A DNA stretch of 64,000 nt from an uncultured Latescibacterota bacterium (GTDB lineage: Bacteria; Latescibacterota; UBA2968), in contig OX638329.1 of assembly GCA_951812755.1 (NCBI GenBank), positions 6,129,107 to 6,193,106 on the forward strand, given 5' to 3'. The translations under genes were made by a program, and so were the position numbers. Below the pieces are notes generated by a model, which worked only from the letters and a program-made list of their open reading frames with translations, was not told the origin of the DNA and made no database searches. Positions 15,737 to 20,380 of the stretch are shown here, one piece after another. Position 1 is the stretch's first letter. The number at the start of each line of letters is the position of its first letter.

Positions 15737-15785
15737 TGCGGCAAGAGTTGCCATAATACATTTATTTACAAGAGGATATATTCAA

Positions 15786-16133
15786 ATGAATATAGATGTT
15801 AAGTGGGTGCGGAAAGACGGTGTCTTGATTGTTGTGCTCAATGGTATTATCGACAGTAGCAGTGCCCCTCAATTGCAACGTGCCCTGGAATCTGGAATTG
15901 GTCCGGCAGATCAGGCATTGCTCCTGGACTTTGAGCAGGTATCTTTTCTCAGCAGTGCAGGGCTTGGGATCTTCCTGATATTTTCCAGGAAATTTGACGC
16001 ACCGGGCAAGCAATTTGGCGTTTGTGCCCTCTCTGATTCAGTCCGCAATGTTATCACCATCAGCGGTTTTGATAAGTTTCTCAAGGTTTATAACTCTCAG
16101 GCAGAGGCAGTCAATGCATTCACGAGCAGTTGA
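15786..16133 (+). CDS. STAS-domain protein (anti-sigma-factor antagonist type)
   Basis: 115 residues that are almost exactly one STAS domain. The N-terminal strand (VLIVVLNGIIDSSSAPQLQ) leads to the phosphorylation loop VSFLSSAGLGIFLIF near residues 55-69, which keeps the serine targeted by kinases in SpoIIAA/RsbV-type proteins. The ATG at 15786 follows a weak AAGAGGA site by about 9 nt. No serine kinase, phosphatase or sigma factor is adjacent. The next gene, 23 nt on, encodes an ankyrin protein, and the two may be co-transcribed. Such proteins relay signals by partner switching; the partner here is unknown. Confidence 0.88.
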   Translation: MNIDVKWVRKDGVLIVVLNGIIDSSSAPQLQRALESGIGPADQALLLDFEQVSFLSSAGLGIFLIFSRKFDAPGKQFGVCALSDSVRNVITISGFDKFLKVYNSQAEAVNAFTSS

Positions 16134-16156
16134 GCTACCGATAGGAGGATAGTGTT

Positions 16157-16879
16157 GTGTTTGATTATCGCGAATCCGATGTCAACGCACGGGACCCCGA
16201 TAGTGGTCGGACGCCGCTACACTTTGCGGTAGAGAATAGTGATTGTGAAGTGGTTGAGCAATTGCTTGACCGAGGTGCCGATGTCAATGTGCAGGAAAAA
16301 ACGGGCAATACGCCACTACACTTTGCGGCGATTAGTAATGCTTCTGAGGTGGTCGATCTATTGCTTGAGCGAGGTGCGTATGTCAACGCGCAGGACAATG
16401 GTGGCACGACGCCGCTACACAATGCGGCGATTGGTAATGCTTCTGAAGTAGTCGAGCAATTGCTTAAATGGAGTGCCGATGTCAATGTGCAGGACAGTGG
16501 TGGCACGACGCCGCTACACAATGCGGCGATTAGTAATGCTTCTGAAGTGGCCGAGTTATTACTGAATCGCGGTGCCGATGTCAATGTACGGGATGTGGTT
16601 GGCAATACGCCGCTACACAATGCGGCGAGTAATAATGCTTCTTCTGAAATAGCCGAGGTGTTGCTGGGCCATGATGCCGATGTCAATGTGCAGAATAATG
16701 ATGGCAATACGCCGCTGGATCTGGCGAGGCGAGGAGATGCTACTGAAACAGTAGAACTATTGATCAACCGGGGTGCTATCACTCCGGTGCAACCAAAAAT
16801 CCGTCGAGTTGGTGTGATTCTGAGCGTGATTATTCTCTTGTTTCTATGTTTTGTGATATTTGTTGTCGTCAGCCCATAG
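16157..16879 (+). CDS. Ankyrin-repeat protein with C-terminal membrane tail
   Basis: 240 residues from a GTG at 16157, with AGGAGG about 8 nt upstream. Six ankyrin units of about 33 residues are visible, each with the (G)xTPLHxAA core (GRTPLHFAVENS, GNTPLHFAAIS, GTTPLHNAAIG and so on) and a closing GADVN. One unit is a residue longer (NNASSEIAEVLL). A hydrophobic segment (VGVILSVIILLFLCFVIFVV) ends the protein, so it is probably tail-anchored with the repeats in the cytoplasm. Neighbouring units are very similar at DNA level, a sign of recent internal duplication. It may work with the STAS protein upstream; no enzymatic domain is present. Confidence 0.88.
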   Translation: MFDYRESDVNARDPDSGRTPLHFAVENSDCEVVEQLLDRGADVNVQEKTGNTPLHFAAISNASEVVDLLLERGAYVNAQDNGGTTPLHNAAIGNASEVVEQLLKWSADVNVQDSGGTTPLHNAAISNASEVAELLLNRGADVNVRDVVGNTPLHNAASNNASSEIAEVLLGHDADVNVQNNDGNTPLDLARRGDATETVELLINRGAITPVQPKIRRVGVILSVIILLFLCFVIFVVVSP

Positions 16880-17007
16880 CATATTGGTAAAAGAAAAAAA
16901 TATTTGAACTGTCGGTATTGAAAAACTGCCAAATGTGCTTTAATTGAAAAGAGTTTCCCATGTTTATGAATGTGGAATTGTAGTCAGTACTGTGGAGGTT
17001 TATAATA

Positions 17008-17463
17008 ATGAGACAGGCCGATATTGCGGTATATGATCCGGATGGACAACTTCAACTGGTCGTCGAAATCAAAAACAGACCTGGCGCGTCCGCCGAATGG
17101 GCCACCCGCCTGCGCCACAATTTATTGGTCCATTCGTTCATACCGCGTGCGCCATACTTCCTGCTCGCGCTCCCTGATTTTTTTTATTTATGGACAGAGG
17201 CTATGTCTGCGAGCAGTCTGGCAAAACCCGACTATAAAATAAACGCCACGAAAATACTGGCTCCATATCTTAACCAATTAACCCAGCCCCTTAATGGTCT
17301 AAGCGGGTATGGCTTCGAGATGATTATGACTTCGTGGCTGGCTGGCATTGTACATACAGACCTTCAAATAGATGAAGCTGGTCCAAATCTCCAATGGCTC
17401 TTTGACTCAGGATTATACGAAGCAATTTCACATGGTTCTGTTGCGATTGAAGCGACAGTATGA
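17008..17463 (+). CDS. Small PD-(D/E)XK nuclease-like protein
   Basis: 151 residues. The N-terminal half has the core signature of the restriction-endonuclease-like fold: ADIAVYDPDG (Asp near residue 4-10) followed by LQLVVEIKN (E-x-K near residues 21-23). The usual first helix is short or missing, so it may be a minimal or N-terminally shortened member. GGAGG lies about 10 nt before the ATG. The stop overlaps the ATG of a PIN-like remnant (ATGA at 17460-17463), so it was once coupled to a second nuclease-type gene, an arrangement reminiscent of toxin-antitoxin or defence pairs. Catalytic activity is uncertain. Confidence 0.6.
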   Translation: MRQADIAVYDPDGQLQLVVEIKNRPGASAEWATRLRHNLLVHSFIPRAPYFLLALPDFFYLWTEAMSASSLAKPDYKINATKILAPYLNQLTQPLNGLSGYGFEMIMTSWLAGIVHTDLQIDEAGPNLQWLFDSGLYEAISHGSVAIEATV

Positions 17464-17543
17464 TTGTGTACGTAGAATCAAATTTCGTCCTTGAATTGGC
17501 AAAGTTTACTGATGGTTTGGGGTATATTCGCAATCGATTGTAA
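17460..17543 (+). pseudogene. Remnant of a PIN-domain gene
   Basis: A 27-codon frame opens MIVYVESNFVLELA, the typical first strand of a PIN ribonuclease with its metal-binding acidic residue, then runs AKFTDGLGYIRNRL and stops. A working PIN domain needs about 120 residues, so most is missing. The second half could be the natural C-terminal tail joined to the N-terminus by an internal deletion; that is an inference. The ATG overlaps the stop of the PD-(D/E)XK-like gene. Confidence 0.5.
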
Positions 17544-17595
17544 AATGCAGCATTGGCGCAGACAGCCCACTGCGCTGATTTCCTATTTATATGAT

Positions 17596-17873
17596 AAAAG
17601 CCCCAACCAATGAGGAAGGGGCATTCGCATCAAGTTAAGCGTTAAAAGCCATATTCTGACCCGTTCCATTGCTCTGTCATTCTGAGCGGAGCGAAGCGGA
17701 GTCGAAGAATCTGCTGCCTGAGTGGTGTTTATGGGTAAAAGATGCTTCGTCAGCCTATCGGCTTCCTCAGCATGACAGCCTATCTGAGCGTGATATGTCG
17801 CTGACTATCTCTTGTTCACCTCTTAGCTTGATGTGTATACCCCAACCAATGAGGAAGGGGCTTTTGTTTTTTT
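17596..17873. repeat. Duplicated CCCCAACCAATGAGGAAGGGGC hairpin motif
   Basis: The segment (22 nt; CCCC and GGGG arms) occurs at 17600-17621 and again at 17840-17861. The second copy is followed by CTTTTGTTTTTTT, so it could stop plus-strand transcription; the first keeps the AAAAG left arm but lacks a T-run. They flank a MITE-like element. The rest of the 554-bp gap 17464-18017 holds only repeat elements; I see no gene. Confidence 0.5.
17675..17777. repeat. Dispersed palindromic element TGTCATTCTGAG...CTCAGCATGACA
   Basis: The ends are imperfect inverted repeats: TGTCATTCTGAGCGGAGCG at the left and CCTCAGCATGACA at the right, with GTCGAAGAATCT and AAAAGATGCTTCGTC inside. A related sequence forms the core of the element at 26756-26901. 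Elements of this style are scattered through many uncultured bacterial genomes. No coding capacity. Confidence 0.7.
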
Positions 17874-18014
17874 GACGTTACGCACAGGAACAATATAATG
17901 CACCTATTACTACGGGAGTAAAAGATGCTTCGTCAACCTGATGGGTGTTGGGCGCAGGTGATTCATTGCGCCCGCCTTAGCATGACAGAAACGCGAGACA
18001 TGCATAACATCAGT
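17871..18014. repeat. MITE-like element, diverged copy with TGACGTTACGCA ends
   Basis: The left end TGACGTTACGCACAGG matches the left end of the element at 26756-26901, and the right end TGCATAACATCAGT matches its right end with two changes. The middle contains AAAGATGCTTCGTC and CTTAGCATGACA, also shared. Length (144 bp) is close to that of the intact copy (146 bp). It sits right after the stop of the PIN-like cassette gene (18018), so it borders the cassette on its 3' side. Confidence 0.65.
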
Positions 18015-18017
18015 TTT

Positions 18018-18896
18018 TTATGGAACAGGAGGAGTTTGTCCGCCGGAATTTACAAAGGCCATTTCTGAGGGATACTTTTTGTGTTTTTTCTGTAGATACT
18101 CACAAAGATAATCAAAGGAATTATCTATATGCTCAAGCCTCATGGATTGTGGCATATCAATTGCAATCACACTATCTCCAACAGATCCACAAAAGTTACA
18201 GGTACAATTTTCCCCATTTTTATCTATGATTTCTTGGAGCCGTTGTCCAATTTTGTAAGCTGGATTAGACCTTCCTAAGGTCTGTGATTCGCTAATTATT
18301 TTATCTATTGAAGCTCTGTTGTTTTTGAGAAAATACGTATCAATTATACATTTTTTTCTACACGCCTCAGTGTCGCAAAACGATTCCTGAAAAGTTCTAA
18401 AGAAATTTCGCTGTTCGCTCAGATCAGATGAAAAGTGCAAAGGTACTATGCCACGCGCACACTTTGTTTTGTCACATTGAATCAATTTGAAATAGTTCTT
18501 AAACTTTACTTCGAGCCTCCAGATTGCATCCGCAAGAGCCCGCTGCCCCTTGGCTTTATTCGTTTGATGATTTAAATCAAATTCTTTTAGATTAAATATC
18601 ACGTTAATTATCTGTATGGCAGCTTTGAGATTTTGTGGCTCAAATTTATTACTCCAGACTTCAAAAGCTTCTCCGAGAGTCTGGATGTGGTTCATATCAA
18701 GAAGAAAGAAAAACGAAATCAGGTTATTTATAAGGCTTCGGCGAAATTCCATCACCACGTAGGATGAAACATTTGGCTTACGATCACCAAATTCTTTCTT
18801 AAACATTTCTTGATAAGTGGAAATGCCTAATACTCGAGTTCGCGCAACCGAGGTGTCTAAAAAAAGTTCAATTTTATCCTGTTTCTGTCCAGTCAT
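18018..18896 (-). CDS. Cys-rich PIN-like protein, last gene of a three-gene cassette
   Basis: About 292 residues. KIELFLDTSVAR at residues ~8-19 matches the first strand and metal-binding Asp of PIN ribonucleases. The C-terminal part GDSVIAIDMP...HIDNSFDYL resembles the family's closing D-x-x-IA and (T/D)-D-x-x-F signals. Between them lies a long insert with three Cys clusters: CDKTKC, CDTEACRKKC and CTCNFC. These suggest a zinc or Fe-S site, unusual for PIN domains. The chosen ATG (18894-18896) lies 23 nt inside the previous gene; a TTG at 18908 in the same frame is the alternative. DNA is clearly more AT-rich than the flanking genes. The PIN assignment is by eye and moderate. Confidence 0.55.
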   Translation of the reverse strand: MTGQKQDKIELFLDTSVARTRVLGISTYQEMFKKEFGDRKPNVSSYVVMEFRRSLINNLISFFFLLDMNHIQTLGEAFEVWSNKFEPQNLKAAIQIINVIFNLKEFDLNHQTNKAKGQRALADAIWRLEVKFKNYFKLIQCDKTKCARGIVPLHFSSDLSEQRNFFRTFQESFCDTEACRKKCIIDTYFLKNNRASIDKIISESQTLGRSNPAYKIGQRLQEIIDKNGENCTCNFCGSVGDSVIAIDMPQSMRLEHIDNSFDYLCEYLQKKHKKYPSEMAFVNSGGQTPPVP

Positions 18897-19527
18897 CCAT
18901 AATTCCAAAAGGCGTTGTGTTTAATCCTAAATCTTCTAAAGCAATTACACCTTCCTCAACCGACTTTAATACAATTCTTTGCTTACGCGAAATTTTAGCG
19001 ATAATTTCCCAGATACCTGCATATTGTTCAGGTGTACAGCTTGCCCACATATCGTCAAACACCAGTGAGTCGTGGAGGGAACTAAATAATAGTCGCAGGG
19101 GATCAGCATCTCCAAATTGGTCATAATCTCTTAATTTTTTAATGACTTCTGATGCTGGACCCGCAACTTGTGGAGTTTCGGCTCTATCTTTCAACTTCTG
19201 TAGAAGTTCTAAAAGCTCATTGCAAAAGTGAACCCTTATTATTTTAGTATAATCTCGGCTATGTCCTTCAGAAATCTGAGAACCGTCTTCTCTGTTACGC
19301 TGTCTCGCGGCTATACTTAAAGTATTTGTTCCGTTGTCCGTAAATTCCTTGCTGTCAGCAATAATGTCTTTTTGTGGAGTAATATTCTGATCTGGCACCA
19401 CATAATTTTCGATGGTCAGCCGATGGGGGACCGAAAAATCTTTGGGTGGCTGATGGGAGGTAGTAGAATCTTCTAAAGTCGGTGTATGGACAGTCTCGTT
19501 CGTCTCCAAGTGATCAGTTGACATCAT
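18874..19527 (-). CDS. Unknown middle protein of the three-gene cassette
   Basis: 217 residues, no family recognised. The first ~85 residues are polar and probably disordered (many Thr, Ser, Asn and Gln). The rest is helical, with NELLELLQKLKDRAE near residue 100 and LFSSLHDSLVFDDMWA near 145. A further stretch, EQYAGIWEIIAKISRKQR, lies near 168. There are no signal or membrane segments and no clear helix-turn-helix. Its ATG overlaps the stop of the gene before it (ATGA), and its own end overlaps the PIN-like gene, so all three are translationally linked. By position it could be an antitoxin or adaptor for the PIN-like protein; this is inference only. Confidence 0.6.
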   Translation of the reverse strand: MMSTDHLETNETVHTPTLEDSTTSHQPPKDFSVPHRLTIENYVVPDQNITPQKDIIADSKEFTDNGTNTLSIAARQRNREDGSQISEGHSRDYTKIIRVHFCNELLELLQKLKDRAETPQVAGPASEVIKKLRDYDQFGDADPLRLLFSSLHDSLVFDDMWASCTPEQYAGIWEIIAKISRKQRIVLKSVEEGVIALEDLGLNTTPFGIMDDWTETG

Positions 19528-20267
19528 GTTGTTATCTCCGATTTGAGTAAATAATCGGCGAGCAAATCTATCCAGGACTCAGCTCTGTCCTTGAGCTTTA
19601 AAACTGTATCTTGGCATTTTGATATTGGAGATTCGCCTTCCTGATAAACATCAATATCCACAAATATAGCTACTCCGGGATAGCCAGAATAAATTTCAGG
19701 CAGTGGGTTCTCACTATTAGGGTCAATATGCTGACCTTCGTTAAATTCAATTCTATGGGGAATTTCGGTTTGATCTACGGGCCCTACAGTGAGATGAGCA
19801 TCGAATTCTCCATCAATTAAGTCAACTCGATACATCATATCTTTGACTTCGGGAAACCCTGCAAGGTTTCTTAAAGGATCAGAATACACCTTGAGATTCA
19901 TCAAAGAATTAAGCTCCGCAAAGGACATGCTCACAGGGATTAGGTATCGGCGTCTATATCCTATTCGAGTAGATTCGACTAAATCCAGTTCTGGAGGTAA
20001 AATACCGATAATGTGGTTGATATTCCTTGTCTCCAAATTTTCATTACTCGAGTCTTGTTCATACGTAAAGGTGTTATGACGTATGGCTATACTACAGTAC
20101 TCATTGTAGTCTTTCAGTGTCACATGGAACCGGTCTGTGCTCCAATCAGGAAAATTTTTTATTTTTGCTGCAGCTCCATATAACAGATTATAAAAAGTCA
20201 GTTCTGGTTTATATCTGACCTGCATAATCACTTTGTAAAGATTTTTTTCGTAATTTCTAACATTCAT
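19524..20267 (-). CDS. First cassette protein, possibly TIGR04255-like
   Basis: 247 residues with no signal peptide. It opens MNVRNYEKNLYKVIMQVRYKPEL and has mixed strand and helix pattern, including STRIGYRRRYLIPVSM near residue 105 and a C-terminal helix (KCQDTVLKLKDRAESWIDLL). Overall it resembles the sporadically distributed TIGR04255 proteins, whose function is unknown, but I hold that match loosely. It is the promoter-proximal gene: a sigma-70-type promoter and an 11-bp palindrome lie just upstream. It couples to the middle gene through ATGA. Base composition is AT-rich, unlike the SDR gene upstream, consistent with acquisition by transfer. Confidence 0.55.
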   Translation of the reverse strand: MNVRNYEKNLYKVIMQVRYKPELTFYNLLYGAAAKIKNFPDWSTDRFHVTLKDYNEYCSIAIRHNTFTYEQDSSNENLETRNINHIIGILPPELDLVESTRIGYRRRYLIPVSMSFAELNSLMNLKVYSDPLRNLAGFPEVKDMMYRVDLIDGEFDAHLTVGPVDQTEIPHRIEFNEGQHIDPNSENPLPEIYSGYPGVAIFVDIDVYQEGESPISKCQDTVLKLKDRAESWIDLLADYLLKSEITT

Positions 20268-20278
20268 TGCCTATTTCC

Positions 20279-20319
20279 ATATAGATGCGAAAAATAAGAA
20301 GTTTTTGCCGCATCTATAT
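20279..20319. promoter_or_regulatory. Perfect 11-bp palindrome at the cassette promoter, operator candidate
   Basis: ATATAGATGCG (20279-20289) and CGCATCTATAT (20309-20319) are exact inverted repeats, with AAAAA and TTTTT inside extending the stem around a 2-nt bulge. It begins 12 nt before the first ATG of the cassette and its distal arm overlaps the -10 region. Such placement is typical of self-regulated toxin-antitoxin operons; alternatively the transcript could form a hairpin that blocks the first ribosome site. Confidence 0.6.
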
Positions 20320-20344
20320 TATATTTGGGGTATATGGAAGTCAA
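20316..20344 (-). promoter_or_regulatory. Sigma-70-type promoter of the three-gene cassette
   Basis: On the minus strand TTGACT (20344-20339) is followed after 15 nt by a perfect TATAAT (20323-20318), or after 17 nt by TAATAT. The -10 overlaps the outer arm of the palindrome. This gives the cassette its own start, separate from the SDR gene upstream on the same strand. Confidence 0.6.
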
Positions 20345-20380
20345 GACATTTTGACCGTATTCAAAAGCGTTCACTTGCAA

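Follow-up and report, generated by a model that had tools for sequence, protein, structure and literature searches.

A PIN-like protein with four invariant cysteines in a small mobile gene cassette

The window that we analyzed, a stretch of 64,000 nucleotides, contains a real, well-conserved feature, which we read as a variant of the PIN toxin architecture not seen before, carried in a mobile and little-known cassette. The gene in question (gene C) is the last of an overlapping operon, A-B-C, on the minus strand. In our preferred reading, to which we assign a probability of roughly 0.55, it encodes a PIN endonuclease with a VapC fold, most probably an RNase, whose role would be that of toxic effector in a small, mobile toxin-antitoxin (TA) or defence cassette. 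Its cysteine tetrad would bind one metal, most likely Zn2+, and gene B is likely the antitoxin. The analysis establishes the sequence, the operon, its conservation, the fold match of one model and the mobility of the cassette. We infer the metal and the RNase, toxin and antitoxin roles; for the cleavage of RNA, the toxicity, the kind of metal and the trigger, we draw on what is established for PIN toxins.

18018..18896, minus strand: gene C, PIN-like, 292 amino acids, ATG start, with a cysteine-bearing insert of about 140 residues between E50 and D241
18874..19527, minus strand: gene B, 217 amino acids, putative antitoxin-type partner, overlapping the start of gene C by 23 nt
19524..20267, minus strand: gene A, 247 amino acids, divergent TIGR04255-like, overlapping gene B by 4 nt

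Cysteines and acidic residues of gene C

The translation of gene C contains every motif that the first-pass annotation had reported at 18018-18896: LFLDTS (residues 11-16), CDKTKC (141-146), CDTEACRKKC (174-183), CTCNFC (231-236), GDSVIAIDM (240-248) and HIDNSF (256-261). The number of cysteines had been called unusual for a PIN protein, and the counts bear this out. Cysteine accounts for 9 of the 292 residues (3.1%), 3.3 times the local rate of 0.93% (100 out of 10,709 residues in 19 large ORFs of the window; P-value = 0.002 for the excess, binomial), and in nine ordinary PIN proteins from the genome that contains the window, 10 of 1,276 residues are cysteines (0.78%). These nine are the aligned subset of the 26 PF01850 PIN matches in the own genome (G000). 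Since so many matches are found within one 6.5-Mb contig, the host can be considered rich in VapC-type genes.

We counted conservation over 31 intact unique gene C proteins, the window's included, with identity down to about 20%. The residues of interest are the following:

18855..18857, minus strand: Asp14, first PIN acid (LFLDTS), kept in 30/31, Glu in the phage copy L085
18747..18749, minus strand: Glu50, second PIN acid (VVMEFRR), 31/31, placed on the PIN Glu by hhalign
18459..18461, minus strand: Cys146, invariant, 31/31
18348..18350, minus strand: Cys183, invariant, 31/31
18189..18191, minus strand: Cys236, invariant, 31/31, five residues N-terminal of Asp241
18174..18176, minus strand: Asp241, third PIN acid (GDSVIA), 31/31
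18123..18125, minus strand: Asp258, fourth PIN acid (LEHIDNSF), kept in 30/31
18102..18104, minus strand: Cys265, invariant, 31/31, seven residues C-terminal of Asp258

An acidic cluster at the PIN site is thus present at the sequence level, with D14, E50, D241 and D258 kept in 30, 31, 31 and 30 of the 31 proteins, and because of this conservation the objection that such a cluster might be lacking fails at that level. G240 is invariant too, beside E50, D241 and the cysteine tetrad. Cysteines occupy 4 of the 21 invariant columns of alignment A8, compared with 9 of 292 residues in the protein (P-value = 0.002, hypergeometric test). Three more are nearly constant, C231 and C233 in 30 proteins each and C179 in 29; all seven are retained in the 28 intact copies other than those of the window, L057 and L085. 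The last two are the most distant homologues and both carry acid substitutions: in L085, from a phage, D14 is replaced by Glu, and an Ile is aligned with D258 in L057. Both are without C179, and L085 is also missing C231, L057 C233. Gene C as a whole has a median dN/dS of 0.118 (13 sequences; 44 of 78 pairs with dS < 2). One further copy, in L021 (5977-6960), carries an in-frame insert of about 37 residues immediately N-terminal of C179.

The first-pass annotation had described three cysteine clusters as pointing to a zinc or iron-sulfur site. All three clusters are present, but the conserved unit is a different one: C141 and C174 occur in the window protein only among the 31, and the invariant C265 was missing from the description, which also left out the partner genes and the mobile contexts. 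A metal site of either type would be compatible with the invariant tetrad. Two of its members, C146 and C183, belong to the insert, and the other two, C236 and C265, to the part of the PIN core that surrounds D241 and D258. Since C236 lies near Asp241 and C265 near Asp258, a metal common to the four would tie the insert down at the active-site edge. Judged from conservation, C146/C183/C236/C265 are most simply read as one predicted zinc site.

Fold of gene C

AlphaFold2, run on an alignment to which the phage sequence had been added, returned one confident model out of five (pLDDT 78.9, pTM 0.77); the other four had pLDDT of 47-59, and a first model built on an earlier alignment was discarded (pLDDT 40.4). 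In the confident model pLDDT is about 60 in the loops of C146, C179/C183 and C231-C236, and about 89 at C265. When this model was compared with known structures (VIA-align 2), rows 1-11 were VapC entries, with Z of 8.1-9.0, rmsd of 2.8-3.5 and 127-136 residues aligned. These matches run from residue 6 to residue 283 of the model and take in almost all of the VapC chain; for 5sv2 (VapC21), which has the best Z (9.0), 134 of 135 residues are aligned at an rmsd of 3.3. Row 12, a chain of the Cas9-PcrIIC1 complex (8wmm_G), has a Z of 7.9 and may count against the PIN reading. A further caveat is the tool's own warning that a Z near 8 can reflect a common arrangement. Lower rows include HARP-type RNase P chains (Z 5.3-6.2), VapC20 (5.8) and RohQ (9oq8; 5.6), and rows of unrelated look have Z of 4.3 and below. 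The Foldseek matches of the model are weak (every E > 0.9), with VapC and RNA-free RNase P chains recurring among them, and a structure search of BFVD gave no match with E up to 0.001.

The N-terminal half of gene C aligns in register with PIN profiles, scoring 31.1 where the best of 100 column shuffles scored 19.1; the C-terminal half alone scores 11.4, a value that 15 of the 100 shuffles reach. By manual count, 191 residues separate the E from the D in gene C, compared with 51 in a PIN protein of the own genome (L061), and it is because of this insert that sequence profiles fail. PF01850 gives no match to gene C up to E 1, and none of the 26 matches in the own genome is to this protein. We found no credible family for it in Pfam, NCBIfam or PHROGs, and nothing usable in a PDB sequence search. 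The best Pfam row, PilZNR (E 0.15), was rejected, and a PADLOC match to AbiTi over 25 residues only (E 0.0028, 15.9 bits) was taken as chance; apart from this, the PADLOC anti-phage profiles did not match A, B or C. The confident model compared with VapC, together with the profile match of the N-terminal half, supports the earlier proposal of a PIN fold interrupted by a cysteine-bearing insert. Gene C is therefore likely to be a PIN nuclease with a predicted VapC-like fold and about 140 inserted residues.

Partner genes and mobile contexts

The C-terminal part of gene B (about 125 amino acids) is homologous to a partner gene of about 136 amino acids that precedes gene C on cyanobacterial plasmids. 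We surveyed the pairing in 39 unique loci including the window, of which 31 have an intact gene C, seven a broken one (L007, L022, L023, L024, L025, L053 and L055) and one, L021, the copy with the insert. Gene B is detected by profile in 37 of the 39 loci. In 36 of these it abuts or overlaps gene C, and in the remaining one, L007, about 0.7 kb separates it from the gene C remnant that follows. An ORF occupies its position in the phage L085 and is unrecognised by the B profile, while L022 has lost gene B and the start of gene C and has a transposase-like ORF upstream. None of the 39 loci has an intact gene C with an empty B position. Conversely, a broken C stands beside an intact B in six loci (L007, L023, L024, L025, L053 and L055). 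If damage were proportional to length, the chance of six out of six breaks in C would be about 0.1 (our own arithmetic, with C about twice as long as B), and the asymmetry is suggestive only, since C is longer than B and the loci were found through the search for C.

Gene B has a median dN/dS of 0.243 (10 sequences; 39 of 45 pairs with dS < 2). Searches of Pfam and NCBIfam gave it no family above cut-off and no recognised DNA-binding domain, and a link to known antitoxins was not established. Only the gene B of L054 (988-1488) has an extra N-terminus that is VapB-like (NF050009, E 0.0039; 17.7 bits, below the cut-off of 60). Upstream of ten cyanobacterial B genes, little is conserved except the last bases before the start.

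The full order A-B-C recurs in the bacterial L057, where gene A is 27% identical, and in the phage L085. The TIGR04255 model (NCBIfam cut-off 30 bits) does not match the window's gene A (P0003) up to E 10, and the single TIGR04255 match of the own genome lies outside the window. With hhalign, the gene A profile aligns to 11 TIGR04255 proteins over 190-192 columns (probability 38-69), and the scores of 33.7 and 38.9 exceed the maxima of 21.3 and 19.4 obtained over 60 shuffles. Among single sequences, the window's gene A scores 21.1 (0 of 60 shuffles) and that of L057 19.7 (1 of 60), while that of L085 alone is not significant (13.7; 22 of 60). A match of gene A to phrog_25670 was rejected (E 0.0073 over 36 residues).

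We fetched 12 neighbourhoods from 21 TIGR04255 matches. In 11 of them a small ORF, as called mechanically, starts within about 50 nt of the TIGR04255 end. Six share one unrelated family close downstream (L117, L118, L119, L122, L126 and L128), of about 180 amino acids, with QGDI or QGEI, xCDL, and RxGLP near the end, which we refer to as the QGDI/QxCDL family. The L117 and L128 members are near-identical and from one genus, the L122 member follows without an intervening small ORF, and those of L118 and L126 have no Pfam or NCBIfam match above cut-off; membership of the genes behind TIGR04255 in L124 and L127 was not confirmed. The gene at this position in L120 is weakly HEPN-like (E 0.0036 in PADLOC, 0.064 in Pfam), and the cassette of L124 (1-6501) lies between PglX and PglZ-BrxA genes, in a BREX-3-type operon. 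The A, B and C profiles did not match the ORFs of the loci with the 21 TIGR04255 matches. Judged from these arrangements, A-B-C may be a type of cassette whose effectors can be exchanged.

A single-sequence search for gene C found it in none of 99 other genomes, profile A3 found it in one of 385 besides its own (G587), and a search among the relatives of G587 returned G587 itself only (1 of 386). Around Nostocales it is frequent, with at least 17 confirmed loci in the genome collection, and it is found in 43 of 387 genomes related to one cyanobacterium, partly full-length and partly as short remnants, of which there are many. Seven of 72,556 plasmid records contain it, six as near-full matches; the B-C pair lies for instance on plasmid B of Trichormus variabilis ATCC 29413 (L005). 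On the six cyanobacterial plasmids that we viewed, the pair or its remnant is within a few kb of parA/parB, and in five of them a tyrosine recombinase or integrase is within a few kb of the pair. A plasmid search with the gene C of L057 gave one match, judged to be chance, and plasmid searches with P0003 and with the gene A of L057 gave none. No relative of gene C was found by single-sequence scans of genome and viral contigs or by profile A1 in viral contigs. L085 was the one viral contig reached, by the more divergent profile A5; three later viral scans returned this contig alone, and in phage records there was no match at E 0.01, other matches being only near E 10. In L085 the cassette lies downstream of terminase (phrog_38) and portal (phrog_21) genes, and is followed by genes weakly matching head maturation protease and major head protein families.

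The site of the cassette in the window is variable among related species:

16903..20378, no strand: segment missing in three sister species, in which A-B-C is found together with the wreck of an older PIN cassette in the window

The three sister species with the empty site (L110, L112 and L114) join window position 16902 to 20379, while L109, L111 and L116 join 15740 to 20379; L113 has different cargo, and the sequence between the flanks in L115 has diverged too far to be aligned. The cassette is absent from the orthologous site in eight of ten other members of the genus, the two left out being G005, without a flanking-gene match, and G009, with a partial one only; profile A3 found no gene C in any of the ten. 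The interval 15740-20379 is a variable hot spot, bounded by a long conserved gene on one side and an SDR gene (so judged by eye) on the other, where the sister species carry an ankyrin-repeat gene, an LRR-type gene (both likewise by eye), PIN cassettes or nothing.

A second, wrecked PIN cassette adjoins A-B-C. On the plus strand, a gene of 151 amino acids (17008-17463), HSDR_N-like at E 0.24 only, comes first, and after it stands what is left of a second PIN gene, a stub of 27 codons (MIVYVESNFVLELA; 17460-17543). The copy of this stub in L113 (7436-7612) is longer and matches PIN_12 (PF16289) at E 2e-4, below the cut-off.

Proposed function and known systems

We propose that one metal, most likely Zn2+, would be held by C146, C183, C236 and C265 and would pin the insert next to the active site, to serve there as a lid or as an arm for substrate recognition, with C179, C231 and C233 extending the metal site in most members. 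The metal-anchored insert could shape the choice of substrate or gate access to the acids. Gene B, plus gene A where present, would keep gene C inactive; upon loss of gene B, through plasmid loss or phage shut-off of host expression, gene C would be freed and would cut RNA. Gene A, in the lineages of the window, L057 and L085, may be a TIGR04255-like accessory, such as a chaperone, a sensor or a second inhibitor. The cassette would be kept for its mobile host, either as plasmid addiction or as defence of the host or prophage against other phages.

The same PIN nuclease might instead use its cysteines as an Fe-S or redox-labile switch that responds to oxidation, metal or phage-induced stress. 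The seven cysteines kept in 28 intact copies exceed the need of one zinc, and a C-x-C-x2-C motif stands immediately N-terminal of an active-site Asp. However, the universal cysteines are only four, the simplest number for zinc, redox regulation is without support and the cysteine loops are poorly modelled; we hold such a switch to be unlikely. More generally, the sensing of RNA, metal or redox state, which the first-pass annotation had also raised, is unsupported, as nothing favours it over a structural metal.

That the protein is a DNA-targeting or tRNA-processing PIN enzyme for plasmid or phage replication or RNA metabolism, with B as a stimulatory subunit rather than an antitoxin, seems to us quite improbable. 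It would accord with the HARP-type RNase P chains among the fold matches (Z 5.3-6.2) and with parA/parB and integrases among the neighbours, yet VapC fits better (Z 8.1-9.0, VapC20 only reaching 5.8). The patchy distribution (0/99, 1/385 and 43/387 genomes, with many short remnants) and the six loci with a broken C beside an intact B also argue against it. The acid substitutions in the most distant homologues (D14E in L085; at D258 in L057) would fit a decayed, non-catalytic PIN scaffold of which the metal site is the conserved part, but neither the window copy nor any of the other 28 intact copies has lost one of the four acids, and the dN/dS of gene C is 0.118, making decay very unlikely. 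The reading as a metal-anchored VapC-fold effector could be extended to a new three-gene anti-phage or addiction cassette, found on plasmids, in a phage and in a BREX-3 locus. In it, gene A would be TIGR04255-like, gene B a coupler that diverges quickly and gene C an effector that can be swapped (a metal-stapled PIN RNase in the window, and in other cassettes an unrelated QGDI/QxCDL family member or a weakly HEPN-like protein), with the cysteine site setting when the nuclease is active. We offer this extension tentatively, as a possibility with the odds against it.

If our preferred reading is right, the repertoire of PIN toxins gains an insert that a metal anchors right at the active-site edge, and the orphan family TIGR04255 becomes tied to mobile toxin or defence cassettes. 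With known TIGR04255 cassettes, the window shares a gene A that is a distant relative and the same order with an abutting small ORF (11 of 12 regions). It differs from them in that gene A falls below the TIGR04255 model and that the downstream gene is of an unrelated family in 6 of 12 regions. In the literature searched, we found no paper containing the name TIGR04255, and no cysteine, zinc or Fe-S PIN toxin among the titles and abstract openings listed.

In zinc-ribbon PIN proteins such as NOB1 and Mut7-C, the PIN domain is accompanied by a separate zinc ribbon. Gene C likewise combines a PIN domain with metal-type cysteines, but some of these lie in an internal insert and the others in the PIN core. 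With VapC toxins (5sv2, VapC21; 3zvk, VapBC2; 6a7v, VapBC11; 3tnd, Shigella VapBC) gene C appears, from the model, to have the PIN fold in common. The likeness to VapBC extends to the four conserved acids, the small upstream partner that overlaps or abuts, and carriage on plasmids and in a chromosomal hot spot. Unlike VapC, gene C is about twice as long, has an invariant cysteine tetrad and 191 residues from E to D, and obtains no PF01850 score; unlike VapBC, its partner B is not a recognised VapB and three lineages have a third gene, A. In VapBC52 of Mycobacterium tuberculosis, a partly cysteine-coordinated zinc and a cysteine switch loop are reported to belong to the peptidase domain of the antitoxin (PMC13273310). 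On that description, zinc and cysteines are there a property of the antitoxin, whereas here the cysteines are found in the PIN protein.
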